Of a DNA stretch of 64,000 nucleotides, positions 34,824 through 50,095 are shown piece after piece. The DNA is taken from positions 62,001-126,000 of the forward strand of contig NZ_JAHBGE010000044.1 in the NCBI RefSeq assembly GCF_018390635.1. Reading direction: 5' to 3'. A model generated the notes under the pieces. The model had not been told where the DNA came from. It saw only the letters and a program-made list of their open reading frames with translations, and searched no databases. Made by a program: the position numbers and the translations under genes. Source of the DNA: Ancylobacter lacus (GTDB lineage: Bacteria > Pseudomonadota > Alphaproteobacteria > Rhizobiales > Xanthobacteraceae). Each line of letters begins with the position of its first letter. The stretch's first letter is position 1.

Positions 34824-36161
34824 TCAGCCTTTGACTTTCATGTGTTCGGGGAGCCACAGCGCGATCTGCGGAAAGATCATCAGGATGACGATGGTCAGGA
34901 ACATGATCGCGGCGAACGGCCAGATCGACTTGTAGATGTCGACCAGCGAGATTTCCTTCGGCGCCAGCGAGCGCATCAGGAACAGGTTGTAGCCGAAGGG
35001 CGGGGTGATGTAGGCGATCTGGCAGGTGATGGTGTAGAGGATGCCGTACCAGATCAGCTGGTTGTCGAAGCCGAGATCGAGCGCCTTCACCAGCGGGATG
35101 TAGAGCGGGGCGACGATGACGAGCATCGCCGTGTCGTCGAGGAACATCCCCATCAGGATGAAGCTGAGCTGCATCATGATGATGATCGTCCAGGGATTGA
35201 GGTCCCACTGCTTGACGAACAGGAACTCGATCGCCTTCACCGCGCCCAGCCCGTCGAACACCGTGCCGAAGGCGAGGGCGGCCAGGATCAGCCACATGAA
35301 CATGCAGGAGACGTTCAGCGTCTTCAGCGCGCTGTCGCGGATCACCGGCCAGCGGAAGTGGCCCTTGTAGACCGCGGCCAGCGTCGCCGCCGTCGCGCCG
35401 ACCGCCGAGCTTTCCACCAGGCTGACATAGCCCATGATGAACAGGCCGGTCATGAAGAAGAAGATGGCGAAGGGAATGATGCCCGCCCGCGCCAGCGCCA
35501 GCTTCTCGCGCAGCGGCATGTTCAGCTCTTCGTCGGTGAGCTGGGGGGCGAGCTTCGGGTTCAGCTTCACCCGGACGTAGATGTAGATGACGAACAGCGC
35601 CGCCATCAGCAGGCCGGGACCGACGCCGGCGAACCACAGCTTGGAGACCGGCTGGCGGGCGATCATGCCGTACAGCACCAGCACGACCGAGGGCGGGATG
35701 AGGATGCCGAGCGAGGAGCCGCCCTGCACCACGCCCGAGATCAGCACCTTGTCGTAGCCGCGGCGGATCATCTCCGGCAGGGCGATGGTGGCGCCGATCG
35801 CCATGCCCGCCACGGAGAGGCCGTTCATCGCGGAGATGATGACCATCAGGAAGATGGTGCCGATGGCGAGGCCGCCGGTGAAGCGGCCGAACCAGACATG
35901 CAGGGCGCGATAGAGGTCCTCCGCGATGCCGGCTTCCGCGAGGATGTAGCCCATGTAGATGAACATGGGCAGGGTCAGCATCGCGTACCAGTTGAACAGC
36001 TTGAAGACCTGGTTGAACGGCAGGTCCATGGCGCCCGGGCCATACAGCAGCAGCGCGGCGGCGGAGGCGACGAAGCCGATGCCGGCGAACACCAGCTGCC
36101 CGCTGATGAGCGCCAGCACCATCGAGGCGAACATCAGCAGCGCGATCATCTCGTAGGTCAT
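34824..36161 (-). CDS. TRAP transporter large permease subunit (FcbT3/DctM type)
   Basis: A 445-residue inner-membrane protein with about twelve helices. The N-terminal LISGQLVFAGIGFVASAAALLLYGPGA and the internal LTLPMFIYMGYILAEAGIAEDLYRALHVWFGRFTGGLA are typical of the mannitol/chloroaromatic TRAP group, as is GGSSLGILIPPSVVLVLYGM. It forms the sodium-coupled channel. Its ATG overlaps the dctQ stop by one base (36161), so the two permease subunits are coupled. Transcription presumably starts in the 525-bp region beyond dctQ. Confidence 0.9.
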   Translation of the reverse strand: MTYEMIALLMFASMVLALISGQLVFAGIGFVASAAALLLYGPGAMDLPFNQVFKLFNWYAMLTLPMFIYMGYILAEAGIAEDLYRALHVWFGRFTGGLAIGTIFLMVIISAMNGLSVAGMAIGATIALPEMIRRGYDKVLISGVVQGGSSLGILIPPSVVLVLYGMIARQPVSKLWFAGVGPGLLMAALFVIYIYVRVKLNPKLAPQLTDEELNMPLREKLALARAGIIPFAIFFFMTGLFIMGYVSLVESSAVGATAATLAAVYKGHFRWPVIRDSALKTLNVSCMFMWLILAALAFGTVFDGLGAVKAIEFLFVKQWDLNPWTIIIMMQLSFILMGMFLDDTAMLVIVAPLYIPLVKALDLGFDNQLIWYGILYTITCQIAYITPPFGYNLFLMRSLAPKEISLVDIYKSIWPFAAIMFLTIVILMIFPQIALWLPEHMKVKG

Positions 36162-36709
36162 CAGAGCGTCTCCCCCCGCAGGGTGGCGATGTGCTTGAAG
36201 ACCAGCGCGAAGGCCTGCATCAGCATCAGGACCAGGCAGACGGTGAGCAGCGCCTTGATCGGGATGACCGAGGGGTTCCAGATCGAGAACCGCTTCTCAT
36301 TGGTGGCGATGGCGTATTGCAGGCTGGAAATGGAGCCGATGAGCAGGACGCCGAGGTAGAAGATCAGGCACCAGACGGTGACGAGGTCGACCTTCGCCTT
36401 GCCGCGCTCGGACAGGGTGGAATACCAGAGGTCCATGCGGACATGCTCGTTGTTCTTGAGCGTGAACGGCCCGCCCATGAAGTAATAGGCCGCCAGCACG
36501 AACTGGGTGAGCTCGACCGCCCAGTGCACCGGCATCTTGATGAGGTTGCGGGTGATGGCGTCGAAGATCAGCACGGCGCCCATGAGGAAGATGAGCGAGG
36601 CCGCGAGATAGCCGACATAGTCGGACACCGCGTCGACCGCGCGCACATAGCGCGCGATCAGGCGCCAGGCGCCGCTTCCACCGGACTTCATCGCATCGTC
36701 CGCATTCAC
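36161..36709 (-). CDS. TRAP transporter small permease subunit (FcbT2/DctQ type)
   Basis: A 182-residue membrane protein with four helices. It shows LIFLMGAVLIFDAITRNLIKMPVHWAVELTQFVLAAYYFMGGPFTLKNNEHVRMDL, the conserved DctQ region in this TRAP group, and ends in the helix LVLMLMQAFALVFKHIATLRGE. It is the first gene of the operon dctQ-dctM-receptor-GlpA-like-flavoprotein-FGGY kinase. A divergent DeoR regulator gene lies about 525 bp away across a region with tandem inverted repeats. Confidence 0.88.
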   Translation of the reverse strand: MNADDAMKSGGSGAWRLIARYVRAVDAVSDYVGYLAASLIFLMGAVLIFDAITRNLIKMPVHWAVELTQFVLAAYYFMGGPFTLKNNEHVRMDLWYSTLSERGKAKVDLVTVWCLIFYLGVLLIGSISSLQYAIATNEKRFSIWNPSVIPIKALLTVCLVLMLMQAFALVFKHIATLRGETL

Positions 36710-37234
36710 GCTGTCACTCCATGGCTGGACGGCGCCGCCGGCACCTCACGTCCGCGGCACGGTGGAAGGCGCACGACATTCCGGCCGCCGGCGCGGGTGG
36801 CGCCGTGGGTATGCCGATGTCGTGGGTGCTGGGAGCAGGCGCCCGCGCGCCTGCCGTGCCGGCTCAGGCCGGGTGAGAAAGGCGCGTCCTGCCGCCGCGG
36901 ATCTGCGTCATCTGGTCCCCCGTACCGGTCGCTGCATCGTCGTTATGCATGCCTGCTTTCACGGCAGGCCATGGCACTGTACCAATTTCGTTAGGGAAGG
37001 AAAGCCCGAATTTTGGCGTATTTGACCATTCGGTCATTCAATCGGTCAATACGTGACCGATTCCGCGCTTGCGAAGCGGGCCGATGCCTGCTTGGCTGAT
37101 CGCCGGTTGAAACCTCCGGCCATGCCCGTGCCGTTCCGTCAGATCGCCCGCGCCTGTCCGGGCGCGGCGCGCGGCCGGCCGGCACGCCATTGACCGCCGC
37201 CGCGGGCGTACCTATCCATCCGCAGCGAGCGGGC
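36710..37234. other. 525-bp divergent regulatory region between the TRAP operon and the DeoR gene
   Basis: No gene is visible. The right half (36965-37065) is AT-richer than its surroundings and carries two inverted repeats and plausible promoter hexamers (TTGACC on both strands). The left half (36715-36960) is GC-rich with short dispersed repeats and no clear signal. Confidence 0.65.
37023..37059. promoter_or_regulatory. Tandem inverted-repeat operator for the DeoR regulator
   Basis: Inverted repeat one is TGACC-ATTC-GGTCA (37023-37036). Inverted repeat two is CGGTCA-ATACG-TGACCG (37043-37059). Their centres are about 21 bp apart, two helical turns, so bound dimers would face the same side. 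They cover TTGACC hexamers that could serve as -35 boxes in either direction, which fits repression of both the TRAP operon and the regulator gene. Confidence 0.65.
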
Positions 37235-38074
37235 ATGGCCGTGGCATCCCTCGCCGCCCCGGGTGGGGCCGCCCACAGTCAGGACCAGAGCGTGCCCTCC
37301 GCTTCGCGCCACCGAACGATCGTTTCCCTGCTGGCCCGCTCCGGCGAGATGTCGGTGGAGGCGCTGGCCGATCATCTCGACGTCTCCCGCGAGACCGTCC
37401 GGCGCGATCTCGCCCGGCTCGAGGCGGAAGGGCGGCTGCGCCGGTTCCATGGCGGTGCCAGGGCCCTCGGCGCTGCCGCGCCGCTGCCGGAAACCGAAGG
37501 CCCGTTCGCCCAGCGGATGACCCAGAACGCGGGCGCCAAGCAGGCCATCGCCCGCGCCGCGGCGGCGCTGTTCGAGCCGGACAGCTCGCTGTTCATCGAC
37601 ACCGGCAGCACCACCATCGCCTTCGCCGAGGCGCTGGCGCTGCGCCCGCCGCTGGTCGCCATCACCAACGCCCCGCGCATTGCCGCCACCCTCGCCCAAC
37701 ATCACGGCCACAAGGTTTTCCTCATCGGCGGCGCCTATGGCGCGGATGCCGGCGAGAGCCTGGGACCGCTCGCGCTGGAGCAGATCGGCAAATTCCGCGC
37801 GGACTATGCCGTCCTCACCATTGGCGGACTCGATTCCGGCTGCGTCATGGATTTCGACCTCCAGGAGGCCGAGGTGGCGAAGGCGATGATCGAGCGCGCC
37901 GACCGGCTCGTCGTGCTGGCGGACCACAGCAAGTTCGACCGTCGCGCGGTGTTCGAGGTCGCCCCGCTCGCGCAGGTCGATGTCATCGTGACGGACCTGC
38001 CGCCGCCCGGGCCGCTGGCGCGGGCGATCGCCGACGCTGACGTCAGGCTGGTGGTCGCCGGTGGCGGCGCCTGA
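37235..38074 (+). CDS. DeoR-family transcriptional repressor (GlpR-like)
   Basis: A 279-residue DeoR-type regulator. The helix-turn-helix is [42 protein letters not shown], and the DeoRC sensor domain shows [34 protein letters not shown] and [17 protein letters not shown]. These bind phosphorylated sugars or polyols. The start at 37235 is the first ATG; a TTG at 37190 would add 15 residues. It is divergent from the TRAP-kinase-dehydrogenase operon and probably represses it, with a phosphorylated product of the FGGY kinase as inducer (inference). Confidence 0.88.
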
Positions 38075-38214: not shown

Positions 38215-40146
38215 ATGACGCTCGTGAAATCTTCCAGTCTCGGCGCGACCCCGGAGGCTGCCGCCGCGCCGTCGTCCGCGCCGAGGAAAAAACGGGCGAC
38301 CCCCGCCGTCGGCGCGGCGGGCCTTGCCGCCGACGCGGCGCTGTACGACAAGGCGTCCGAGCGGCTGGCGGCGGCCACCGAACAGCTCGCGGGCGGGCTG
38401 GTGGAGGCCTCGGCGGCGGCCGAGCAGCTTCGCGCTTCCATGGAGCGCATCGCGGCCGGGGCGGAGCAGGCGGCCGGCGGCTCGCAGGAACAGCTCGCCG
38501 CCATCCGGTCCGTTGCCGCCAGCCTTGCCGGGGCGCGGGTCCGGGCCGATGCCGGACGCCGTCGCGCCGAGGCGATCCAGCTCGTGGTGGCCGAGACGGC
38601 CGTGCAGATCACCGCGTCGGTGCGCGCCATCGAGCGCAACGCCCTGCGCCAGCAGGCCTCGGTGAGCCTGATCGCCGAGCTGGAGCGGCGCGCGCGCGAC
38701 ATTGGCGAGATCACCGAGACGGTGGGCGGGCTGTCCGACCAGACCAGCCTTCTCGCCCTCAACGCCGCCATCGAGGCGGCGCGGGCGGGTGAGCACGGGC
38801 GCGGCTTCGCCGTGGTGGCGGAGGAGGTGAGGGCGCTGGCGGAAACCTCGGAGCGCAGCGCCGGCGACGTGCAGGGCCTCGCCCAGACCATCCAGGCCGA
38901 GGTCGGCACCGTCGCCGCCGCGGTGAAGGAGGGGTTCGACATGGCCCAGGCGCAGGCCCGCACCGGCGCCGAGGTGGTGGCCGCGCTGGAGACGGTGCGC
39001 GCCGACATGGCCGGCCTCACCCGGGGCAGCGACCAGATCCTGTCCTCGTCACTGGAAGCCGAACGGGCGGCGATGGAGGCCCAGCGCGGGGCGGAGCTGG
39101 TCGCGAGCGCCGCCGAGGAACAGGCCGCCGCGGCGAGCGAAGTGCAACTGGCGGTGCAGCAGCAGACGCAGTCGCTGGAGCAGAGCCAGGTTGCGGGACA
39201 GGAGCTGGCGCGGGCCAGCGAGGGCGTGCGCCGCGGCGGGGTTGCCGCCGCGCAGGCCGAGCGGATCGCGGCCGCGGCCGAGGAACTTTCCGCCAGCATC
39301 CAGCAGCTTTCCGGCGCCGCCACGCAGATCATGACGGCGGTCGGGCAGATCGACCGCGGTGCCCAGCAGCAGGCCGCCGCCACCCGCCAGACCTCTGCCG
39401 CGCTGACCGAGATCGAGGCCGGCGCCACCCTCGCCGAGGAAAACGCCGTGCGGGCGGCGGAGCGGGTGGTGGCCATGGAGCGGACGCTCGCGGAGAGCCG
39501 GGCGGCCATCGAGCGGCTGATGGCCGGTGTCGGCACCGCGCTGGCCCGCACGCAGGGCAGCCTCGCCACGGTGCTGCAGCTCGAGGGCATCGGCCGGCGC
39601 ATCGAGAAGATCGTCGACAGCATCGCGCTGGTCGCTATCCAGACCACGATGCTGGCGGTCAGCGGCTCCGTCGAGGCGGCGCGTGCCGGCGAGGCCGGGC
39701 GGGGTTTCTCGCTGGTGTCGGCGGATATCCGCAGCCTTGCCCGCGATGCCTCCGACAGCGTGTCCGGCATCAAGGACACGGTCCGCGCGGTTCTCGAGCA
39801 GATCGGCTCGCTGCGCCGCGACTGCGAACTCGCCATCCTGACCGCGGAAACCGAGATCCAGAACCACCGGGCCGTCTCCGCCGCGCTGGAGCGGCTCGAC
39901 GCCGACGTCGCCGAGCTCAGCGCCGGCAACCGCGGCATTGCCGAGAGCGCCCAGGCGATCATGGCGGCGGTCCGGCAGTGCGCGCAGGCGGCCCGGCAGA
40001 TCGCGGCCTCCGCCGAGGAGGCGGGCTTCGCCGCGCGCCAGGCCGCCACGGCGTCGGCGCAGCAGGCCCAGGGCGCGGACGACCTTGCCGCCGCCATCGA
40101 GGAAATCGCCTCGCTGGCCGACGCCTTCAGGCAGCAGAATGGATAA
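38215..40146 (+). CDS. Soluble methyl-accepting chemotaxis protein with two signalling-tip regions
   Basis: A 643-residue, coiled-coil-rich receptor with no membrane segment or periplasmic domain. A canonical kinase-control tip lies at about residues 172-212 ([39 protein letters not shown]). A second, degenerate copy lies at about 465-515 ([40 protein letters not shown]), having lost the [10 protein letters not shown] core but kept [12 protein letters not shown]. Between and around them are long Ala/Gln/Glu helices. The first 60 residues are Ala/Ser/Pro-rich. It heads the che operon; GGGGA precedes the ATG at 38215, and 38128 is an alternative start. Confidence 0.83.
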
Positions 40147-41689
40147 CCCGCCCCAGCCCATGGCTGCCGGCGGGACGACGCACCGCTTCCTCACCTTCCG
40201 CGTCGGCGCGGATATCTATGCGCTGCCGGCGCAGGACGTGGCGGAGGTGATCCGCCTGCCCCCGCTCGCGCGGCTGCCGCAGGCTCCCGCGGCGCTGATG
40301 GGCATCGCCAGCCTGCGCGGCGCCACCCTGCCCGTGGCCAGCCTGCGGGCGCTGCTGGGGCGGGCCGCGCCCGCCGCGCGGCCCACGCCGGCCCGGTCCG
40401 CCGCCGCCCGGGCCATCGCGCTGCGCGGGGCGGCGGCGGTGGGGCTCGCGGTGGATGCGGTCGACGATCTCGTCACCATAGGCGCGGCGCAGATCGAGCC
40501 GGCGGAAGCGAGCGCCGCCGTCCGGCCGGGCGAGCGGCTCACGAGCGTCTTCCGGTTCCACGACGACCGCGACCTCGCCCGGGTGCTCGACATGCCGCCC
40601 TTGCTGGCGGCGGCCTTCGTGCCGCGCCCGCGCCCGCCGCGTCCGGCGGTGGCACCGGGCCCGGCTCAGCCGCGCCTCCACCCGTCGCAGGCGGCCTCTC
40701 CCGGCGGGGTGGGCGAGCGGCTCGTCACCTTCGAGGCCGCCGGGCAGGAATATGGCCTGCCCATCGGCGCGGTGCAGGAAATACGGCCCCTGCCGCCGAG
40801 CGTGACGGCCCTCCCGCCGGATGAGGCGGTGGCGCGCGGGGTGGCGGTTCACCGCGGCCGGCTGCTGCCGCTCTTCGCGCTGCGCGGGCTGCTCGGCCTG
40901 CCGGCGCAGACCGAGGGCGGCAAAGGCGCGGGCAAGGTGGTGGTGGTCAGGGTGTCCGGCCATGCGGTGGGCCTTGTCGTCGACCGGATGCGCGACGTGC
41001 TCCCGGCCGATCCCGCGAGCGTCGAGCCCGTGCCGCCGGTGCTCGCGGCGCGGATCGGGGGCGAGCTGCGCATCCCGCGCCTGCTGCGGGCGGAAAATGG
41101 CCGGCGGCTGGTGCCGATCCTCGATCCACAAACGCTTTTCCGGGAGGAGGTCATGCAGCGGCTCGATCGCCGGGAGGCCGGCGACGCCGTGCCGGACGCG
41201 GCTGCCGCGGCCGGAGAGATGGCGCTGCTGGTCTTCCGGCTGGGCGAGGACGAGTACGCCCTGCCGATCGGCGCCGTCGACGAGGTGGTGAAGGCGGCCG
41301 GCGCGGTGACGCGGATTCCGGGGACGCCGAAATTCCTGGAGGGCGTCGTCAATCTGCGCGGCAGCGTGCTGCCCATCATCGACCAGCGCCGCCGCTTCGA
41401 CATGCCGGCCCTGCCGCCGGGCGCGCCGCGCCGGATCATCGTGGTGCGCACCGACCGCCACCGCGCCGGCATCGTCGTGGACCGGGTGACGGAAATCCTG
41501 CGCTGCCGTGAAGACGCCGTCGATCCCGCGCCCGATCTCGCCGGCGAGCCGGCGCGGCTGGTGTCCGGCATCCTCAATCTGGAGCCGGCCGGGCGGCTCA
41601 TCCTCCTGCTCGATCCCGCCGAACTGATGACCCGCGCCGAACGCGGGCTGCTCGACGGTTTCGCCAAGAAGCGGCGCGAGGCAAGGTGA
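40139..41689 (+). CDS. Triple-CheW-domain adaptor protein
   Basis: A 516-residue protein with three CheW modules at about residues 14-160, 190-345 and 360-510. Each starts with the [26 protein letters not shown]-type strand (second: [21 protein letters not shown]; third: [22 protein letters not shown]) and has the internal [10 protein letters not shown] / [12 protein letters not shown]-type loop. A Pro/Arg-rich linker separates the first two. CheW couples receptors to CheA, so three in one chain would bridge several receptor or kinase units, perhaps suited to the double-tip receptor. It overlaps the receptor gene by 8 bp and cheB by 4 bp. Confidence 0.88.
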
Positions 41690-42756
41690 TCAGGCTGCTG
41701 ATCGTCGACGACTCCGCCCTCATCCGCAAGCTGCTCGGCGAGATCTTCGCCCGCGCCGGCGGCTTCGAGGTGCGCGTCGCGCGCGACGGCCTCGCGGCGC
41801 TGGAACAGAACCGCAGCTTCGCCCCGGACGTGGTGACGCTCGACCTCGACATGCCGCGCATGGACGGGCTGACCTGCCTCGACCGGCTGATGGTCGAGCG
41901 GCCGTGCCCGGTGGTCATCGTCTCGTCCCACAGCCTGCCCGGTGCCGAGGCGACGCTGAAGGCGTTCGAGCTTGGCGCCGTCGACGTCATGCCCAAGCCG
42001 GGCGGCCCGGTCTCGCTGCATATGGACGAATGGGCGCCCCGGCTGGTGGCGAAGGTCCGCGGTGCGGCGCGGGCGAAGGTCCGGTCGAGCCTGCGGCTGC
42101 GCGAGCGTGTGCGTCAGCGGATCGGCGCCGCGCTGGCGGCCGCTCCGTCCGCGCCGGCGCGGGCGCTCCGCCCCATGGCGGAAGGCGACGGGCTGGTGCT
42201 GGTCGGCGCCTCCACCGGCGGGCCGCCCGCGCTCGAGGCACTGCTCACGGCACTGCCCGCCTCCTTCCCGTGGCCGATCCTGGTGGCGCAGCACATGCCG
42301 GCGAGCTTCACCGGCGCGCTGGCCCGCCGGCTCGACAAGCTCTGCGCGCTCGCCGTCATCGAGGTGAGGGAGCCGGTGCCGCTGCAGCCCGGCATGGTCT
42401 ATATCGGGGCGGGCGATGCCGACCTTCTCGTATCCCGCCGCGACGCGGCGCTGGTCGCCATGGCGGCGCCGCCGCTGCCCGCCCATCTCTGGCACCCCAG
42501 CGCCGACCGCCTCGTCGCCTCCGCCATGGAGGAGCTTGCGCCGGCCCGGATCATCGGCATCCTGATGACCGGCATGGGCAATGACGGCGCCGCCGCGATG
42601 GCGGAGCTGCACGCGCGCGGCGGCCACACCATCGCCGAGGCCGAGGAGACCGCGGCGGTCTGGGGCATGCCCGGCGAACTGGTGAAGGCGGGCGGGGCCG
42701 AATGGGTGGAGCCGTTGCCCGACATTGCCGCCCGCCTGCTGGCGATGGTGCCGTGA
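41686..42756 (+). CDS. cheB: Chemotaxis methylesterase CheB
   Basis: A 356-residue CheB: receiver domain (residues 1-120, phospho-acceptor Asp 53 in TLDLDMPRMDG) and methylesterase domain (about 165-350) with the catalytic triad Ser 176 (GASTGGPPAL), His 203 (AQHMPASFTG) and Asp 300 (MGNDGAAAM). It removes methyl groups from receptor glutamates or deamidates glutamines. The GTG start overlaps the triple-CheW stop. Present with CheR, it shows the system has methylation-based adaptation. Confidence 0.95.
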   Translation: MIRLLIVDDSALIRKLLGEIFARAGGFEVRVARDGLAALEQNRSFAPDVVTLDLDMPRMDGLTCLDRLMVERPCPVVIVSSHSLPGAEATLKAFELGAVDVMPKPGGPVSLHMDEWAPRLVAKVRGAARAKVRSSLRLRERVRQRIGAALAAAPSAPARALRPMAEGDGLVLVGASTGGPPALEALLTALPASFPWPILVAQHMPASFTGALARRLDKLCALAVIEVREPVPLQPGMVYIGAGDADLLVSRRDAALVAMAAPPLPAHLWHPSADRLVASAMEELAPARIIGILMTGMGNDGAAAMAELHARGGHTIAEAEETAAVWGMPGELVKAGGAEWVEPLPDIAARLLAMVP

Positions 42757-42757
42757 G

Positions 42758-43411
42758 ATGCCGCTGATCCGCCCGAAGGCCGCCGGCGCGCCGGCATCGT
42801 CCCCCGATCCCCGGACCGCGCCGGATGTCGCCGCCCTGAAGGCCGCGCTGCAACACGGCACGCCGGACGCGCGCCGCGCCGCCGCACGCGCCCTTGCCGG
42901 CGTGCCGGAAGCGGCGGGGCTGCTGGCGGCGGCGCTGGCGGGAGAAGAAGACATCCGCGTGCGGGAGGCGATCTTCACCGGGCTCGCCGGGCTCGGCACC
43001 GGGGAATGCGCCGACCTCCTGCTTGCCCTGCTGCGGTCGCCGGATGCCGGGCTTCGCGGCGGCGCGCTGGACGCGCTGGCGGCGATGCCCGCCCGGCTGC
43101 CGGCCCGGCTTCCCGCCCTGCTGCGCGACGACGACCCGGATGTGCGGCTGCTCGCCTGCGGGCTCGCGCGCGTCCTCGCCTCGGACGAGGCGACCGCGCT
43201 GATGTGCGCGGTGCTGGAACGCGAGGCCGAGCCCAATGTCTGCGCCGCGGCGGTGGACGTTCTCGCCGAGCTGGGCGAACCGCAGGCCCTGCCGGTGCTG
43301 GCGCGCTGCGCCGCGCGGCCGGGCGCCCCGGCGTTCCTCGTCTTCGCGACCGGGATTGCCATGCGGCGCATCCGTGCGGCGTCCGACCGGGCGGGCGAGG
43401 CCGGCGCGTGA
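42758..43411 (+). CDS. HEAT-repeat protein of the chemosensory operon
   Basis: A 217-residue protein of about five to six short helical repeats: LKAALQHGTPDARRAAARALAG, LLAAALAGEEDIRVREAIFTGLAGL, LLLALLRSPDAGLRGGALDALAAM and DDDPDVRLLACGLARVLAS, matching the HEAT/PBS-lyase pattern. Such folds are scaffolds for protein binding and have no catalysis. It lies 1 bp after cheB and overlaps cheR by 4 bp (GTGA), so it is made with the adaptation enzymes and probably docks one of them. The partner is unknown. Confidence 0.78.
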   Translation: MPLIRPKAAGAPASSPDPRTAPDVAALKAALQHGTPDARRAAARALAGVPEAAGLLAAALAGEEDIRVREAIFTGLAGLGTGECADLLLALLRSPDAGLRGGALDALAAMPARLPARLPALLRDDDPDVRLLACGLARVLASDEATALMCAVLEREAEPNVCAAAVDVLAELGEPQALPVLARCAARPGAPAFLVFATGIAMRRIRAASDRAGEAGA

Positions 43412-44241
43412 ACGAGGACGAATTCCGGCGGCTGTGCGACTTCATCTACCGGCGCACCGGCATGGTGTTCACCGAGGCCAGGCGCTATTACGTCGAGCGG
43501 CGGGTCACCGAGCGCCGGTCCGCCACGAACACGGCCTCGTTCGCCGCCTATTTCGCCCGCCTGCGCCGCGACCTCGACGGCGAGGTGGAGCAGTTCATCA
43601 ACGCCTTCACCGTCAACGAGACCTATTTCTTCCGCGAGGAGCACCAGCTTCGCTGCCTCTCCGGCGACCTGCTGGCCCGGCGCATCGAGGCCCGCCCGGC
43701 GGGGCGGCCGCTGCGCATCTGGTCGGTGCCGTGCTCGACCGGGGAGGAGCCTTACTCCATCGCCATCTGGCTGCTGGAAAACTGGCCGATGGTGGATGCG
43801 TTCGAGATCGAGATCGTGGGCTCCGACATCGACACCCGGGTGATCGAGGCCGCGCGGGCCGGCCATTTCGGCCGGCGCGCCCTGATGCGGCTGTCCGAGC
43901 CGCTGATCGCGAAGTATTTCGAGCCGGAGGGCCCGGAGAGCTGGCGGATCATTGCGGAACTGCGCAATTCGATAGATTTTACCACGGTCAATCTCGTCGA
44001 TGCCGCCGGCATGCGGGCCCACGGCGTGTTCGACGTGATCTTCTGCCGCAACGTCCTGATCTATTTCGATGATGCCTCGCGCCGCATCGCCGCGGAAAAC
44101 CTGTACGACAACCTGATGCCGGGCGGCTTCCTGTGCCTCGGCCACAGTGAATCCATGAGCCGGATATCGCCCCTGTTCGACGTGTGTCGCTATGCCGACG
44201 CGATCGTCTATCAACGGCCGCGGGAGCCGCGCCATGGCTGA
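43408..44241 (+). CDS. cheR: Chemotaxis methyltransferase CheR
   Basis: A 277-residue SAM-dependent methyltransferase. The N-terminal helical domain is residues 1-75 (FRRLCDFIYRRTGMVFTEARRYYVERR). The SAM domain has FTVNETYFFREEHQL, IWSVPCSTGEEPYSIAIWLLE, IVGSDIDTRVIEAAR and FDVIFCRNVLIYFD. It methylates receptor glutamates using SAM. The GTG start overlaps the HEAT gene's stop. The last residues, YQRPREPRHG, lack the NWETF-type receptor-tether-binding feature, which concerns receptors and not CheR itself. Confidence 0.95.
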   Translation: MNEDEFRRLCDFIYRRTGMVFTEARRYYVERRVTERRSATNTASFAAYFARLRRDLDGEVEQFINAFTVNETYFFREEHQLRCLSGDLLARRIEARPAGRPLRIWSVPCSTGEEPYSIAIWLLENWPMVDAFEIEIVGSDIDTRVIEAARAGHFGRRALMRLSEPLIAKYFEPEGPESWRIIAELRNSIDFTTVNLVDAAGMRAHGVFDVIFCRNVLIYFDDASRRIAAENLYDNLMPGGFLCLGHSESMSRISPLFDVCRYADAIVYQRPREPRHG

Positions 44242-44635
44242 GGCGGAGCCCATCCGGTCCGGCCGGCGCGTGCTGGTGATCGACGACGCCAGCCTGGTGC
44301 GGCTGTACTACCGCCAGTTGCTGGAGGACGACGGCTTCGTCGTGGAAGAGGCGCTGAACGGGCTGGAGGCGCTGGAGGCGCTGCTGGTCGGTCCGTTCGA
44401 CCTGCTCATCGTCGACGTCAACATGCCGCGCATGGACGGGCTGACCTTCCTCAGGACCCTGCGGCGCCTGACCTCCGCCGCCGCCGCCATTCCCGCCCTC
44501 GTCACCAGCACCGAGGCGGCGGCGCAGGACAGGGAGGCGGCCCGGGCGGCTGGCGCCAATTTCTATCTCGTCAAGCCGCTGGAGCCGGAGGTCCTCACCC
44601 TCCACGCCCGTCTCATGTGCGGGGTGCCGGCGTGA
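44234..44635 (+). CDS. Single-domain response regulator (CheY-like)
   Basis: A 133-residue receiver: acidic pair Asp 17-Asp 18 in LVIDDASLVR, phospho-acceptor Asp 61 in LIVDVNMPRMDGL, switch Thr/Ser in LVTSTEA, and conserved Lys in YLVKPLEPE. The start at 44234 overlaps the cheR stop by 8 bp. It is one of two CheY-type receivers in the operon, so one may drive output and the other act as a phosphate sink or target of the CheC phosphatase. The longer upstream frame runs into cheR. Confidence 0.9.
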   Translation: MAEAEPIRSGRRVLVIDDASLVRLYYRQLLEDDGFVVEEALNGLEALEALLVGPFDLLIVDVNMPRMDGLTFLRTLRRLTSAAAAIPALVTSTEAAAQDREAARAAGANFYLVKPLEPEVLTLHARLMCGVPA

Positions 44636-46548
44636 ACGAGTTCATCGAGCAGTTTCTCATCGAGGCGCGCGAACTCGTCGAGCAGGGCACGGCGGACCTG
44701 CTGGCGGCCGAGCAGCACCCGGACGACGCCGAGGCCGTGGCGGGCGCCTTCCGGGCATTCCATACGCTGAAGGGCGCCGCCGGCATCATCGATTTCGCGG
44801 CGATGGCCCGCGCCCTGCACGCCGCCGAGGACGCGCTGTCGGCGGTTCGCAGCGGCGCGCGCCCGCTCGACCGCGATCTTACCGGGCGCTGCCTGTCCTG
44901 CCTCGATCAGGTGGTGGCGTGGCTCGATCTGATCGCGCAGAGCGGCGAGCCGCCCGCCGACGCGGAAGCGGCGGCCGACTCCCTCGTCGCGCTGTTCGCG
45001 CCGGATCCGCCCCCGGCCAACGGCCCGGACCGGCCGACCGGGCAGCCCGATCCCGTCCCCGCCGCGTCGGCCGTCTCCGAGGCGGTGGACGCCCTCCTCG
45101 CCGCGCAGGCCGCCCTGCTGCGGGGACCGCGCGACGAGGGCTTCGAGGGGCGCGCGGCCGCCGCGCTGGCCACGGCGGTCAACGTGCTCCGGGCGGCGGG
45201 CGAGGGTGATGCCGCGGCCGAGCTGGAGCGGCTGGCGCAGGCGGGCGCCGGTGTCGCCGACCTCGTCCGCGCCATGCGGCGGGCCTCTCCCGAGGCCGAC
45301 GGCCTGCCGGCCCCGGCGCCGGCGGCGGCGCGGTCCCCGCAGCAGGGCGGCCTGCGCGGCGAGGAGGCCGCGGCGGATTCCGGCGCCCGCTCGCTGCGGG
45401 TCGATATCGGCCGGGTCGATGCGCTGGTGCGGCTCGCCGGCGAGTTCACCGTGCTGATGAACGCCGCCGGCCATGCCGCCGCGCTGGCCGAGCGGGGGGA
45501 GGGGCGGGCGCTCGCACCCCTGCTGAAGCGGCAGCATGGCGCGCTGGAGCGGCTGGTGGACGCATTCCAGCATGCCGTGCTGGCCCTGCGGGTGCTGCCG
45601 CTCCGCCACGTCTTCCAGCGTTTTCCCCGGCTGGTGCGGGACATGGCGCAGGCGCTGGACAAGCCTCTGCGCCTCGTCATCGAAGGCGAGGCGACCGAGG
45701 CGGACAAGGCGATCGTCGAGGCGCTGTTCGAGCCGCTGCTGCACATCCTGCGCAACGCCGCTGACCACGCCATCGAGCCCGCCGCCGCCCGCCGCGCCGC
45801 CGGCAAGCCGGAGACCGGCCTCGTCGTCCTGCGGGCCCGTCGCGAGGAGGACCGCCTCGTGGTCGAGGTGGAGGACGATGGCGGCGGTCTCGACACCGCC
45901 CGCATCCGCGCGGTGGCCGCCGCGCGGGGCGTCGCGAGCCCGGAGGCCCTCGCGGCGCTGACGGAGGAGGAGGCCGGCGACCTCGTTTTCGCGCCCGGCT
46001 TCTCCACGCGGCCCGACGTCACCGATTATTCCGGCCGCGGCGTCGGCATGGACGCGGTGCGGGTGGCGGTGGAGCGGCTCGGCGGCCGGGTGGCGCTGCG
46101 CAGCCGGCCGGGGCTCGGCACGCGGGTGCGGCTCGACCTGCCGGTCAGCATCCTCAAGACCGAGGTCATGACCGTGGAGGTGGGCGGGCAGGTGCTCGGC
46201 CTGCCGCTCGACGTGGTGGTGGAGACCACCCGCATCCCGCGCGCCGCGCTTGCCCGCATCGGTGCCGCCCGGGCCTTCGTCTGGCGCGGGCGCACCGTGC
46301 CGCTTCTCGACCTCTCGGGCGTTCTCGAGGCGGAAGGCTCAACGGAACGCTCGTCCGAGGCGCTCGTCGTCGTTACCCTGGTGGCCGGCGCCTATGGCGG
46401 GCTGGAGGTCGGCCGGTTCGGCGAGCGCATGAGCGTCATGCTGCGGCCGATGGAGGGCCTGCTCGCCGGCCTGCCGTGCCTTGGCACCACGCTTCTCGGC
46501 GACGGCCGTGTTCTCATCGTGCTCGACCTTCATGAGCTTCAGCTATGA
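44632..46548 (+). CDS. cheA: Chemotaxis histidine kinase CheA
   Basis: A 638-residue CheA. P1 (HPt) carries His 44 in AFHTLKGAAGIIDF. A low-complexity linker region with no obvious P2 domain follows (about 120-250). P3 dimerisation starts near SLRVDIGRVDALVRLAGEF. P4 ATPase has LLHILRNAADHAIEP (N box), DDGGGLD (G1) and GRGVGMDAVR (G2). P5, CheW-like, has LKTEVMTVEVGGQVLGLPLD and ends LDLHELQL. It phosphorylates the receivers and CheB. The GTG start overlaps the previous stop. The weak or missing P2 is common in alternative chemosensory systems. Confidence 0.93.
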   Translation: MNEFIEQFLIEARELVEQGTADLLAAEQHPDDAEAVAGAFRAFHTLKGAAGIIDFAAMARALHAAEDALSAVRSGARPLDRDLTGRCLSCLDQVVAWLDLIAQSGEPPADAEAAADSLVALFAPDPPPANGPDRPTGQPDPVPAASAVSEAVDALLAAQAALLRGPRDEGFEGRAAAALATAVNVLRAAGEGDAAAELERLAQAGAGVADLVRAMRRASPEADGLPAPAPAAARSPQQGGLRGEEAAADSGARSLRVDIGRVDALVRLAGEFTVLMNAAGHAAALAERGEGRALAPLLKRQHGALERLVDAFQHAVLALRVLPLRHVFQRFPRLVRDMAQALDKPLRLVIEGEATEADKAIVEALFEPLLHILRNAADHAIEPAAARRAAGKPETGLVVLRARREEDRLVVEVEDDGGGLDTARIRAVAAARGVASPEALAALTEEEAGDLVFAPGFSTRPDVTDYSGRGVGMDAVRVAVERLGGRVALRSRPGLGTRVRLDLPVSILKTEVMTVEVGGQVLGLPLDVVVETTRIPRAALARIGAARAFVWRGRTVPLLDLSGVLEAEGSTERSSEALVVVTLVAGAYGGLEVGRFGERMSVMLRPMEGLLAGLPCLGTTLLGDGRVLIVLDLHELQL

Positions 46549-46736
46549 CCGTGCATGGCAAGGCCGACGGCACCACCCTCCTCTCCGGCGCTGGAGAGGG
46601 GCGGGCGGCAGACGCCGTTGCCGCCCGCCACGCTGCCCCCCCAGCCGGGACCGCCGCCTGGGGCGGCGCGGGCCCGACCGGCGCATCCGATGATCCCAAC
46701 CGCGGCGAGCCCGCCTTTCGGAGCCTTCCTTCATGA
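46545..46736 (+). CDS. 63-codon ORF linking cheA and cheY by 4-bp overlaps
   Basis: ATGA overlaps at both ends (with the cheA stop at 46545 and the next ATG at 46733) reproduce the coupling pattern used by every adjacent gene in this operon. The predicted peptide (MTVHGKADGTTLLSG, ending EPAFRSLPS) is Ala/Gly/Pro-rich and probably disordered. It has no family resemblance and no clear ribosome-binding site of its own. It may be a real small protein, or simply the remnant through which ribosomes travel from cheA to cheY. I rate it as possible only. Confidence 0.35.
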   Translation: MTVHGKADGTTLLSGAGEGRAADAVAARHAAPPAGTAAWGGAGPTGASDDPNRGEPAFRSLPS

Positions 46737-47110
46737 CGTTTCAGGTCCTCATCGTCGACGACAGCAAGCTCGCCCGCATGGCGATCGCCAAAGCGATGAA
46801 CAATCTGCAGCCCGGCTGGACCCGTGTGGAGGCGGCGAACGCCGACGACGCGCTCGCCCTCGCCCGCAGCCAGACCTTCGACATCGCCCTGCTGGACTAC
46901 AACATGCCCGGCCGCGACGGGCTGCAGCTCGCGGGCGAACTGCGCGATCTCTCCCCCGGCATCGCGCTGGCGCTCATCTCCGCCAACCATCAGCGCGAGG
47001 TGGTCAGCCAGGCGCATGAGGTGGGGGCGATATTTCTCTCCAAGCCCTTGACCCAGGAGGCGCTTGGCCAATTTCTAAGCGAGGTCCAGCAGTCCAAGAG
47101 GTCGATGTGA
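46733..47110 (+). CDS. cheY: CheY-type response regulator
   Basis: A 125-residue receiver: LIVDDSKLARMAI (acidic pair Asp 9-Asp 10), phospho-acceptor Asp 55 in ALLDYNMPGRDGLQL, ALISANH (switch Ser) and FLSKPLTQEAL (conserved Lys). No output domain is attached. Immediately downstream is a CheC-type phosphatase gene overlapping by 4 bp, which makes this receiver the likely substrate for dephosphorylation. The kinase is presumably the CheA encoded two ORFs upstream. Confidence 0.92.
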   Translation: MTFQVLIVDDSKLARMAIAKAMNNLQPGWTRVEAANADDALALARSQTFDIALLDYNMPGRDGLQLAGELRDLSPGIALALISANHQREVVSQAHEVGAIFLSKPLTQEALGQFLSEVQQSKRSM

Positions 47111-47769
47111 GCGACCAGAGCCGCCTTGTCCTCAGCGAGCTGCAGATCGACGCGTTGACGGAGCTCGTCAACATCGGCGTCAGCCGGGCCGCGGCCAGCC
47201 TGCGGGACCTCGTCAGCCGGCAGGTGCTGCTCTCCGTGCCCCGCGTGACGCTGGTGAGCCGGGCCGACGCCATCGCGATTCTGGGCGCCACCGAGGAGCG
47301 CGGCCTCGTCGCGGTCCATCAGCTGTTCGAGGGCGACATCACCGGGCGGGCCCTGCTGATATTCCCCGAGATCAACAGCCTCGAACTGGTGCGGGCCGTC
47401 ACCGGCGGCATGCTGCCGCTGGAGGATATCATCGAGCTGGAGCAGGAGGCGCTGGCGGAGACCGGCAACATCATCCTGAACGGCTGCCTCGCGACCATCG
47501 CCAACATGCTGCACCGCAGCCTCAAGATGTCGCTGCCGGAAATCCTGCGCGGTCACGGCCGCGATCTCTTCGAGCTGGCGCCGCCGCCGGTGGGGGGCGA
47601 CGTCGTTCTGTTCCTCTACATCAATTTCGCGGTGCACGAACGCGACATTCGTGGCTACATCGCGATGCTGATGGATTTGCCCTCGCTGGAAGCGCTGCGG
47701 GGACTGCTGGACGAATTCATCGAGCGGGTTGCAGGCGGAGCGGTGCCCGAGGCGAATGCCCCTGTTTGA
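47107..47769 (+). CDS. cheC: CheC-family CheY-P phosphatase
   Basis: A 220-residue CheC-like protein with both phosphatase motifs (family pattern E-x2-N-x22-P). The first is ALTELVNIGVSRAAASLRDLVSRQVLLSVPRV. The second is LAETGNIILNGCLATIANMLHRSLKMSLPEI. CheC removes phosphate from CheY-P and in some bacteria partners CheD; I find no CheD here. The GTG start overlaps the cheY stop. CheC is common in Firmicutes, Archaea and some deltaproteobacteria and less usual in alphaproteobacteria, where other phosphatases or phosphate sinks are typical. The protein is at the expected length. Confidence 0.83.
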   Translation: MSDQSRLVLSELQIDALTELVNIGVSRAAASLRDLVSRQVLLSVPRVTLVSRADAIAILGATEERGLVAVHQLFEGDITGRALLIFPEINSLELVRAVTGGMLPLEDIIELEQEALAETGNIILNGCLATIANMLHRSLKMSLPEILRGHGRDLFELAPPPVGGDVVLFLYINFAVHERDIRGYIAMLMDLPSLEALRGLLDEFIERVAGGAVPEANAPV

Positions 47770-50095
47770 CGATGATCTCGCGCGCATGCTCATCGACGAG
47801 CTGGACGGTGGCGTCATCGTCGTCGACCGGGAGCGGCGTGTCCTCATCTGGAACCGGTGGATGGCCGCGGCGACCGGAAAGCCGGCTTCGGCGTGTCTCG
47901 GCCGGCCGCTGGACGACCTGTTCGCCGACACGCCGGCGCGACTCTGGGCGGCGCTCAGGGAGGCCTTTTCCGCCGGCACGGCGAGCCTTCTCACCCATTC
48001 GCTGCATGCGGCCGTGTTTCCCTTGCGCACCCGCGCCGGTCTCGAACTGGTCCACAACGCCTCGGTCCGCCCGCTGGGGCCGAAGCCGCACGACACCTGC
48101 CTGATCCAGCTCGTCGACGTCACCGCCAGCGCCAACCGCGAGCGGGTGCTGCGGCAGCGCCAGAACGCGCGCTACCACGCCGTGGTGGACAGCGCGCTCG
48201 ACGCGATCCTGACGCTCGATGCCGATGGCGTGATCCAGCTCGCCAACCCCTCCGCCGCCGGCCTGTTCGATCGGCCCGCCGAGGACCTCGTCGGCGTGAC
48301 GCTGTCGTCGCTGCTGCAGGAGCATGGCGCCTGGCGCACGGCCTGGGAGCGGGTGCTCGGCGGCGACCCGCTGACCCGGCCGGTCGAGGTGGAGGCGCGG
48401 CGCCGGGACGGGTCGGCGAGCTTCCTGGAGCTCACCGCCTCCCGCTGGACCAGCGATGCGCGCTACTTCGTCACCGCGATCCTGCGCGACGTCAACGAGC
48501 GCAAGGCGGCCGAGGCCGAGCTGCGCGGCCTCAACATGACGCTGGAGCGGCGGGTGGCCGAGCGCACCGCCGAGCGCGACCGGATGTGGCGGCTCTCGAC
48601 CGACATCATGGTGGTCGCCCGGCTCGACGGCGTCATCAAGGCCACCAACCCGGCCTGGACCCACCTTCTGGGCTGGGAGGCCGGCCAGTCCGGCGGCGCC
48701 CCTCTGGTCGATTTCGTCGCGCCGGAGGACCGCGAGCGCTTCCGCGGCATTCTCGACGCGCTCGGCCGGGAGACCCTGCCGCAGCGTTTCGCGCTCCCGC
48801 TGCGGACGCGCGAGGGCGGGCTGCGGTGGATCGAATGGAGCGCGGTGGCCGCCGACGATCTGCTGCAGGCGGTGGGCCGCGACATCACCGCCCAGCGCGA
48901 GGCCGAGAGCACGCTGCGCCGCACCGAGGCCGCCCTGCGGCAGGCGCAGAAGATGGAGGCGGTCGGCCAGCTCACCGGCGGCATCGCCCACGACTTCAAC
49001 AACATGATGACCGGGGTGATCGGCGCCATCGACATCATGAAGCGCCGCATTGCCGCCGGCCGGCTCGACGACCTCGACCACTTCATGACCGCCGCCTCGT
49101 CCTCGGCGCAGCGCGCGACGGCGCTGACGCAGCGCCTGCTCGCCTTTTCGCGCCGGCAGTCGCTGGATTCACGCCCGGTCGACATCAACGCGCTGGTCGG
49201 GTCGCTGGAGGACCTGCTCCGCCGCACCATTGGCGAGTCGGTGCGGCTGGACACCCGGCTCGATCCCGCGCTGTGCTGGGCGACCGCCGACGCCAACCAG
49301 CTCGAAAGCGCGATCCTCAACCTCGCCATCAATGCCCGCGACGCGATGCCCGGGGGCGGCCAGCTCACGGTGACGACGCGGCAGCAGAGCTTCACCGCGC
49401 TCGATGTGCTGGCGACGCACGAGCTGAAGCCGGGCCGCTACATCGTCATCGCCGTCGCCGATACCGGCAGCGGCATGGCGCCGGAGGTGCTGAACAAGGT
49501 GTTCGAGCCGTTCTTCACCACCAAGCCGGTGGGGCAGGGCACCGGCCTCGGCCTGTCGATGGTCTATGGCTTCGCCCGCCAGAGCAACGGGCATGTCGAG
49601 ATCCGCAGCGTCCCCGGACAGGGCACCACGGTCGAGCTGTATCTGCCCGTCGCCGAGGCGCCCGCCCCGCCCCGGCCGGAGCCGCCGGCGGTGGCCTTCG
49701 AGGGCGAGGGGCAGACCGTGCTGCTGGTGGAGGACGATGAATCCGTGCGCCTGCTGGTGGCCGACATCCTGCAGGAACTCGGCTATGCATCGGTCGTCAC
49801 CGCCGAGGCACAGTCCGCCCTAAGGGAGCTGTCCGCCAATCGCGACATCCAGCTCATGATTTCGGATGTCGGCCTGCCGGGGATGAACGGGCGGCAGCTT
49901 GCGGAGCTGGCGCGGCGGGAGCGGCCCGACCTCGCGATCCTGTTCCTCACCGGCTATGCCGAGGATGCGGTGATGCGCTCGGAATTCCTCGGCCCCGGCA
50001 TGGCGATGATGACCAAGCCCTTCGCCATAGAGGCGCTGGCGACCAAGATCCGGGAGATGATCGCCGCGCCCGCCCGCCGCGCCGTCTGCCCGTGA
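47756..50095 (+). CDS. PAS-domain hybrid sensor histidine kinase
   Basis: A 779-residue cytosolic hybrid kinase with no membrane segment. PAS domains lie at about 8-125 (IVVDRERRVLIWNRWMAAATG), 140-255 (ILTLDADGVIQLANPSAAGLF) and 280-395 (VARLDGVIKATNPAWTHLLG). HisKA with His 412 in GGIAHDFNNMMTG follows, then HATPase (NLAINARDAMPGGG, ADTGSGM, GTGLGLSMVYGFARQ) and a C-terminal receiver (about 655-775, Asp 704 in ISDVGLPGMNG). It closes the operon with a 14-bp overlap onto cheC. It could add a second sensory input or serve an unlinked output. Confidence 0.9.
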   Translation: MPLFDDDLARMLIDELDGGVIVVDRERRVLIWNRWMAAATGKPASACLGRPLDDLFADTPARLWAALREAFSAGTASLLTHSLHAAVFPLRTRAGLELVHNASVRPLGPKPHDTCLIQLVDVTASANRERVLRQRQNARYHAVVDSALDAILTLDADGVIQLANPSAAGLFDRPAEDLVGVTLSSLLQEHGAWRTAWERVLGGDPLTRPVEVEARRRDGSASFLELTASRWTSDARYFVTAILRDVNERKAAEAELRGLNMTLERRVAERTAERDRMWRLSTDIMVVARLDGVIKATNPAWTHLLGWEAGQSGGAPLVDFVAPEDRERFRGILDALGRETLPQRFALPLRTREGGLRWIEWSAVAADDLLQAVGRDITAQREAESTLRRTEAALRQAQKMEAVGQLTGGIAHDFNNMMTGVIGAIDIMKRRIAAGRLDDLDHFMTAASSSAQRATALTQRLLAFSRRQSLDSRPVDINALVGSLEDLLRRTIGESVRLDTRLDPALCWATADANQLESAILNLAINARDAMPGGGQLTVTTRQQSFTALDVLATHELKPGRYIVIAVADTGSGMAPEVLNKVFEPFFTTKPVGQGTGLGLSMVYGFARQSNGHVEIRSVPGQGTTVELYLPVAEAPAPPRPEPPAVAFEGEGQTVLLVEDDESVRLLVADILQELGYASVVTAEAQSALRELSANRDIQLMISDVGLPGMNGRQLAELARRERPDLAILFLTGYAEDAVMRSEFLGPGMAMMTKPFAIEALATKIREMIAAPARRAVCP

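Follow-up and report, generated by a model that had tools for sequence, protein, structure and literature searches.

A probable class F9 (Che2-type) chemosensory operon in Ancylobacter lacus, conserved in layout and retained by some relatives without flagella

Here we analysed a chemosensory operon in a 64,000-nucleotide stretch of the Ancylobacter lacus genome (contig NZ_JAHBGE010000044.1, positions 62,001 to 126,000 of the forward strand; the window, from whose first letter all positions are counted). Ten intact genes, with domains identified by Pfam, lie on the + strand between 38215 and 50095 in the order mcp-cheW3-cheB-HEAT-cheR-rec1-cheA-(gap)-rec2-cheC-PAS hybrid kinase (Table 1), and the start at 38215 agrees with the conserved N-terminus of the receptor. 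A sequence-only reading of this DNA had drawn the same two boundaries and named the same parts (receptor, triple CheW, CheB, HEAT protein, CheR, two receivers, CheA, CheC and kinase), all of which Pfam confirmed, and it was right to see in them a single, tightly linked machine apart from flagellar genes. Its count of eleven open reading frames (ORFs) stands only in part: the eleventh frame exists, with 63 codons that overlap both neighbours in the gap after cheA, but it matched neither a Pfam family nor, at a significant level, the STAS-like family discussed below, so that the conserved genes are ten. The junctions of 1 to 14 bp that it described are those of eight of the nine (mcp/cheW3 +13, cheW3/cheB -4, cheB/HEAT +1, HEAT/cheR -4, cheR/rec1 -8, rec1/cheA -4, rec2/cheC -4 and cheC/kinase -14 bp, all depending on the start codons chosen in our analysis), the exception being cheA/rec2 with +184 bp.

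Table 1. Genes and reading frames of the chemosensory operon, in window positions
Feature	Position	Strand	Evidence
mcp (DosM-like), double-tip soluble receptor, no sensory domain	38215..40146	+	two MCPsignal stretches (Pfam)
cheW3, three concatenated CheW domains; alternative start 40139	40160..41689	+	three CheW stretches, E 3.9e-89
cheB, receiver and methylesterase	41686..42756	+	Pfam Response_reg and CheB_methylest
HEAT-repeat protein, 217 aa	42758..43411	+	HEAT_2, E 1.4e-23
cheR, methyltransferase	43408..44241	+	CheR_N and CheR; CheR E 3.1e-53
rec1, stand-alone receiver	44234..44635	+	Response_reg, E 2.6e-25
cheA, Hpt, H-kinase_dim, HATPase_c and CheW, without receiver	44632..46548	+	Pfam; tree
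Putative gene: 63-aa frame at the usual STAS-like site, possible remnant	46545..46736	+	
rec2, stand-alone receiver	46733..47110	+	Response_reg, E 1.1e-20
cheC, CheC/CheX-family phosphatase, two E-x2-N sites	47107..47769	+	Pfam CheX and CheC above cut-off
PAS-PAS-PAS hybrid histidine kinase, C-terminal receiver	47756..50095	+	Pfam PAS, HisKA, HATPase_c and Response_reg

Gene content and phylogeny indicate that this is almost certainly a chemosensory operon of the alphaproteobacterial class F9 (Che2-type), the class being set here by signature genes and orthology and not by the MiST/Wuichet-Zhulin class models. A double-domain receptor, DosM, and a triple CheW protein have been described as features unique to F9 (PMC9321776; PMC7534058; papers are cited by their PubMed Central numbers), and the window encodes both signature proteins, with two MCPsignal and three CheW stretches, respectively. 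In a tree of 39 of the extracted CheA rows (loci L050 and L084 yielded no CheA; L and G numbers denote the loci and genomes compared), the window protein formed a clade with three Azospirillum loci and other alphaproteobacterial loci (support 97/93), apart from the CheA of Escherichia coli and from both the flagellum-linked and the long-branched Wsp-like CheA of its own genome. MiST3 treats Che2 of Azospirillum brasilense as F9 (PMC6943060), and in a plasmid search with the window CheA the top three rows listed, out of 40 taken at even steps from 376 records, were from Azospirillum, with about 47% identity. A new chemosensory class was rejected on the F9 signature. We also rejected a flagellum-linked alphaproteobacterial class (F5), because the CheA lies in another clade of the tree and F9 does not track FliM within the genus; the genome does carry a further che cluster near its flagellar genes on contig C4, and we infer the label F5-type for the CheA of that cluster.

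F9 is a known but rare class, and for it the parts list of the window is ordinary and the layout conserved. Full F9 systems were reported in 64 of 2781 species (PMC9321776); a CheC match at E 1e-10 occurred in 14 of the 385 genomes of our class sample, some of these matches being weak, and within the genus the operon is patchy (6/30 genomes). From a scan with an alignment of CheC the best 80 of 133 were taken as named loci; they come from Ancylobacter, Bradyrhizobium, Microvirga, Methylobacterium, Caulobacter, Sphingomonas and others, and the order mcp-cheB-cheR-cheA-rec2-cheC is kept in 75 of them. Among these 75, cheW3 was found in 74 (all but L074), and cheC is followed by a same-strand match to the hybrid kinase in 74 (all but L070). 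Contig ends truncate four of the five loci that do not conform (L031, L050, L068 and L083), while L084 truly differs. The view that the set does not fit known layouts was thus not borne out, and what we found is largely the outcome against which the sequence-only reading had set its proposal, a known class with gene order conserved in many relatives. The layout with CheC is common in alphaproteobacterial F9, as seen among loci that were all found through CheC. L084 (10001-13166) carries cheC next to the hybrid kinase and, over the preceding 10 kb, no further che gene, from which it appears that the pair may exist apart from F9. Second CheC matches, either close to the F9 operon or at another place in the genome, were observed in L026, L046, L052, L078 and L088 and in G123, G355 and G457.

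The catalytic residues checked are conserved across these loci. The CheB Ser-176 column (GASTGG) holds Ser in 81/81 sequences, CheA His-44 is present in 81/83 (the other two being gapped), the H-box His occurs in 84/84 best kinase matches and the Asp of the kinase receiver in 81/84, with gaps in the other three. Asp-61 and Lys-114 of rec1 are found in 34/34 sequences, Asp-55 and Lys-104 of rec2 in 83/83, and E19, N22, E118 and N121 of CheC in 85/85; the pairs E19/N22 and E118/N121 we take to be the catalytic E-N pairs. The ratios of nonsynonymous to synonymous substitution rates (dN/dS) between the window and loci L013 and L017 ranged from 0.08 to 0.29 in six genes.

The HEAT gene and rec1, which flank cheR, vary among the loci. 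Both genes are present in 33 loci and both absent in 48, being concordant in 81/81 scorable loci (85 loci minus L050, L068 and L084, which gave no cheB or cheR match, leave 82, and L083 is cut on the cheB/HEAT side and unscorable). On a four-protein tree of the 81 loci this distribution takes two changes, one in L034 alone and one in a single clade of 47 loci, compared with at least 19 in 200 shuffles; when the tree is rooted with Azospirillum both changes are losses, although several inner branches are weak. Because both times two non-adjacent genes went while cheR stayed, the HEAT protein and rec1 probably work together, two events being few. Their presence or absence together is apparently a new observation. 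We found no publication naming the HEAT gene or the STAS-like gene as a part of F9 (the supplementary tables of PMC9321776 lay outside the search), and the accessible parts of PMC8100600 and PMC13390405 gave nothing on this system.

The receptor suggests the architecture into which these proteins would be assembled. Two conserved tips lie 300 residues apart in 67 of 78 homologous receptors (78 of the 79 extracted, by a length over 550; set A5 comprises 25 receptors). The sequence of tip 1 is the canonical one; that of tip 2 is also conserved but differs from it, Ser standing in 96% of the 78 in place of the invariant Asn of tip 1, and this difference suggests that the two rod ends may bind different baseplates. 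In the window mcp (38215-40146) tip 2 lies near residue 487. An AlphaFold2 model of the mcp product (predicted local distance difference test, pLDDT, 88; predicted template modelling score, pTM, 0.65) is helical from residue 36 to 642 without any globular domain and breaks at residue 191 (tip 1) and at 340-343, its helices 36-190 and 192-339 amounting to about 22 and 21 heptads when compared with the 44-heptad type by helix length. No membrane-spanning stretch is evident in the receptor (highest 19-residue hydropathy mean 1.61). The protein can thus serve as a scaffold, whereas a sensor within it is not evident. Imaging has been done on the F9 arrays of Vibrio cholerae, described as DosM rods that run between two baseplates of CheA and triple CheW; their function was called elusive and their cellular role unclear (PMC7534058). 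By analogy, the receptor rods of the window would span two baseplates of CheA and CheW3 and form a membrane-free, two-layer cytoplasmic array, which we consider probable. A straight rod with 300 residues between its tips, at a rise of about 0.15 nm per residue, would measure roughly 44 nm from one tip to the other, compared with a reported 35 nm in V. cholerae. Since the DosM-like receptor lacks a sensory domain, signals would enter through other soluble receptors joining the array, as has been inferred for DosM arrays (PMC9321776), through the PAS kinase, or through both.

Downstream of such an array, CheA would phosphorylate rec1, rec2 and CheB, CheC would drain phosphorylated rec2, and the hybrid kinase would either share rec2 as its target or be set by CheA via its own receiver. 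The model for this last step is the Che3 system of Rhodospirillum centenum, in which CheA3 phosphorylates a receiver of the hybrid kinase CheS3, and phosphorylated CheS3 alone phosphorylates CheY3 (PMC3868531). We give the loop of rec2, CheC and kinase about even chances. The HEAT protein and rec1 would form one removable branch, and rec2, CheC and the kinase the other, kept in nearly every locus of a set found through CheC. The target of the receivers would lie outside the operon and be reached through protein contact. Receivers of the Cle type were rejected: the Cle c-di-GMP motif (taken from PMC5677366) occurs in 0/35 rec1 and 0/84 rec2 sequences, the reference row included. One paper calls proteins of A. 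brasilense che2 Cle2 and Cle3 (PMC8561660). Taken in full, the proposal is that of a two-branch machine with a non-flagellar output, where CheA, rec2, CheC and the PAS kinase would run a developmental or surface programme, and where a removable HEAT adaptor and rec1 would work only together around CheR; in this complete form it remains tentative.

What the operon controls was approached through the distribution of flagellar genes. In the genus sample (our own and 29 other genomes) FliM occurs in 12 of the 30, and the same 12 hold a PF02895 CheA 16.5-17.0 kb away on the same contig. F9 occurs in six genomes, 4 of the 12 with FliM and 2 of the 18 without, and does not track it (P = 0.18, with small numbers). 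The window genome has FliG, FliM and FlhA. In G022 and G028, on the other hand, there is no match to FliG, FliM or flagellar FlhA, and all ten F9 genes are present in order. The F9 CheA is the sole PF02895 match of these two genomes, which refers to CheA of the PF02895 type only, because PF02895 misses the Wsp-like CheA. Between G022 and G028 dN/dS was 0.04-0.18 in six genes, with dS of 0.9-2.0 and thus near saturation; these values point to constraint on the F9 genes, the loss of flagella being undated and the path between the two possibly running through flagellated ancestors.

FliG was sought in 56 genomes chosen for F9 (our own, six G genomes and those of 49 of the 80 loci; of the other 31 loci five, L021-L024 and L086, are covered by the G genomes and 26 lie outside). 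FliG absence alone failed as proof of a missing flagellum among the five FliG-negative genomes: G075 has FliM and FlhA, and G088 has FlhA adjoining matches to ORFs of the flagellar region of the window genome. The FHIPEP gene of G022 is part of a type III secretion cluster that is not flagellar. That cluster (G022, C1, 3965000-4004800; L112/L113) contains YscJ, an EscN-type ATPase, export proteins and an SseC-like protein. Consequently, G022, G028 and G089 remain without evidence of a flagellum, as does G355 in the class sample, with no FliG, FliM or FHIPEP match. G447 also lacks these three and was not counted as F9, given its weak CheC match and the absence of a PF02895 CheA. Genomes with F9 are usually flagellated, yet F9 can be retained without flagella. 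Because some flagellum-less relatives keep the operon intact, the main output is more likely to be a developmental or surface behaviour than the switching of a motor, and the earlier suggestion that the output could be something other than swimming is a possible one; that it is not motor switching we hold to be somewhat more likely than not. The account as a whole, that of an F9 operon building a two-layer array with a main output rather developmental or surface-related, is in our view very probable.

Several results weigh against this account. The AlphaFold2 model has no break at tip 2, helix 344-642 being continuous, so that the second hairpin is drawn from sequence alone. The constancy of CheC is uninformative, since all 80 named loci were found through it, and F9 loci lacking CheC would have escaped the scan. 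FliG is present in 51 of the 56 chosen F9 genomes against 228 of the 385 in the class sample (51/56 versus 217/371, P = 5e-7, the 56 being related and chosen), and 97% of F9 species are reported to have full flagellar sets (PMC9321776). Within the class sample alone the two groups do not differ (FliG in 11 of the 14 genomes with a CheC match, a twelfth, G236, having FliM, versus 217/371; P = 0.17). In R. centenum, Che2 mutants are hyper-flagellated or without flagella and still chemotactic (PMC2890560). Finally, G022 and G028 may have lost their flagella recently.

Of the alternatives, the one that survives best is that F9 sets the number or assembly of flagella, as Che2 does in R. centenum, and is a mere passenger in relatives that were recently de-flagellated. 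The Che2 deletions just mentioned, which alter flagellation and not taxis, the flagellar genes of the window genome and the frequency of FliG among F9 genomes all argue for it, this frequency making a flagella-linked role possible. We nevertheless consider it unlikely, because G022 and G028 keep all ten genes in order without flagella and under apparent constraint (subject to the near saturation of dS and to a path that may run through flagellated ancestors), and because in the genus F9 does not follow FliM, in small numbers. The letter in F9 names a class and does not establish a swimming role, since the V. cholerae role was called unclear and the R. centenum Che2 mutants remain chemotactic.

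That the operon is a second pathway for swimming chemotaxis, with receivers that bind the motor, is improbable. Although it has two CheY-like receivers with intact phosphorylation sites, it is another CheA that tracks FliM in the genus (12/12 genomes with FliM and 0/18 without), the receptor has neither a membrane nor a sensory domain, the receivers lack the Cle c-di-GMP motif, and deletion of the F9 cheA in V. cholerae gave no detectable phenotype under standard conditions (PMC7534058).

Slightly less probable still is that the cluster was gained by horizontal transfer and is now partly decaying, with little function left in this strain. Its patchiness in the genus and the lack of a recognisable STAS-like gene in the window would fit such a history, as would the fact that four flank genes all went unseen in the 2-6 kb flanks of the other five operons of the genus; against it, the ten genes are open, the residues checked are intact, dN/dS against L013 and L017 is low, and the STAS-like gene is missing from nine other cheA-bearing loci too. 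Ten flanking ORFs were tested, of which nine encode domains of metabolism, transport or regulation (FAD oxidoreductase, TRAP DctM and DctQ, DeoR regulator, M20 peptidase, hydantoinase B and A, ABC transporter and solute-binding protein) and one has no match. None of the ten is a flagellar gene, as the sequence-only reading had said of the neighbourhood; the statement covers those ten and leaves the rest of the window aside. At 34824-38074 the TRAP transporter genes are divergent from the DeoR-type regulator, which was matched in 22 of 35 searched genomes at E 1e-50, mostly at about 70% identity. No empty insertion site was found in G011, G018 and G029, the operon-free relatives of the genus with both the DeoR and the M20 flank genes at E 1e-50, where the two genes lie apart. 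No sigma-70-type promoter was found (0 versus 0.3 expected), and terminator-like sites were close to chance (4 versus 2.2 expected).

The weakest alternative, a system of the ACF or Wsp type, would agree with the absence of flagellar genes among the flanks tested but is very improbable and was rejected, given that the CheA has no receiver and groups with F9, that the operon encodes neither a CheA-REC fusion nor a REC-GGDEF or any other GGDEF protein, and that a separate Wsp-like operon exists on contig C41 of the same genome. A CheA-REC fusion and a REC-GGDEF output gene define Wsp. The C41 operon (L019, 1875-10258) comprises an MCP with 4HB and HAMP, CheW, CheR-TPR, CheW, CheA-REC, CheB and REC-GGDEF.

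The gap after cheA is occupied in most relatives. A STAS-like ORF of 80-90 aa follows cheA in 73 of the 83 loci with cheA (85 loci minus L050 and L084, which have none), usually with a 4-bp overlap with the stop codon of cheA. A script placed 64 of these ORFs between cheA and rec2; six others belong to an open frame that begins within cheA, and at the three Azospirillum loci the ORF follows cheA while rec2 lies elsewhere. In the window and in nine other loci with cheA no STAS-like gene was recognisable. The protein of the relatives gave a confident predicted model (pLDDT 91.7), for which Foldseek placed STAS domains of SLC26, RsbV and MlaB among the top rows, together with ClpP chains, none of them at E 0.001 or better (best 9.8e-3), and Pfam STAS_2 fell below its cut-off. 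In Sinorhizobium meliloti, CheA is bound by the STAS protein CheS, with whose help it discriminates two CheYs (PMC12654446). A CheS-like role is plausible, by this analogy, for the STAS-like protein of the F9 relatives. Other chemosensory operons (L106, L108 and L110) also carry annotated STAS-domain genes, placed two genes upstream of their cheA, and the STAS-CheA pairing thus recurs across chemosensory operons.

Placed beside known systems, the operon resembles cluster I of V. cholerae (F9; DosM VC1403, CheW VC1402, CheA VC1397), which likewise has a receptor with a double signalling domain, a triple CheW and a CheA (PMC7534058; PMC9321776), and to which, compared by description and not by sequence, the window adds the tail of rec2, CheC and PAS hybrid kinase. 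The Che2 locus of A. brasilense (Sp7 plasmid p2, AMK58_RS23655-RS23610), whose identity with the published che2 operon we infer from its ten genes including CheC, has the same mcp-cheW3-cheB-HEAT-cheR-rec-cheA order and a CheA of the same clade. It differs in having a small STAS-like ORF after cheA and REC-CheC upstream, while the opposite strand encodes another CheC together with a PAS kinase of the HisKA_2 type and a REC. Che2 of R. centenum shares the tripartite CheW, but its CheA is reported to be a hybrid with a receiver and the description of the cluster mentions no sensor kinase, the window being the opposite on both points (PMC2890560). Che3 of R. centenum, of the ACF class, wires a Che cascade to a PAS hybrid kinase and a single-domain receiver in the way proposed here (PMC2890560; PMC3868531), although its CheA3, unlike the window CheA, is a hybrid kinase. 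CheS is the small STAS protein of the S. meliloti che cluster and the proposed analogue, by likeness of fold, of the ORF in F9 relatives (PMC12654446), the window itself having no recognisable copy.

The interest that remains lies in the output of the operon, in the genomes where that output can be tested, and in the HEAT/rec1 and STAS-like partners. Leads to specific partner proteins come from the co-occurrence of HEAT and rec1 and from the STAS-like gene next to cheA, and genomes that keep F9 without flagella provide a clean background for finding the output. If the operon is a two-branch, non-flagellar machine, its output would be readable in G022 and G028 with no background of motility, because in these two flagellum-less relatives the F9 CheA is the only one of the PF02895 type.

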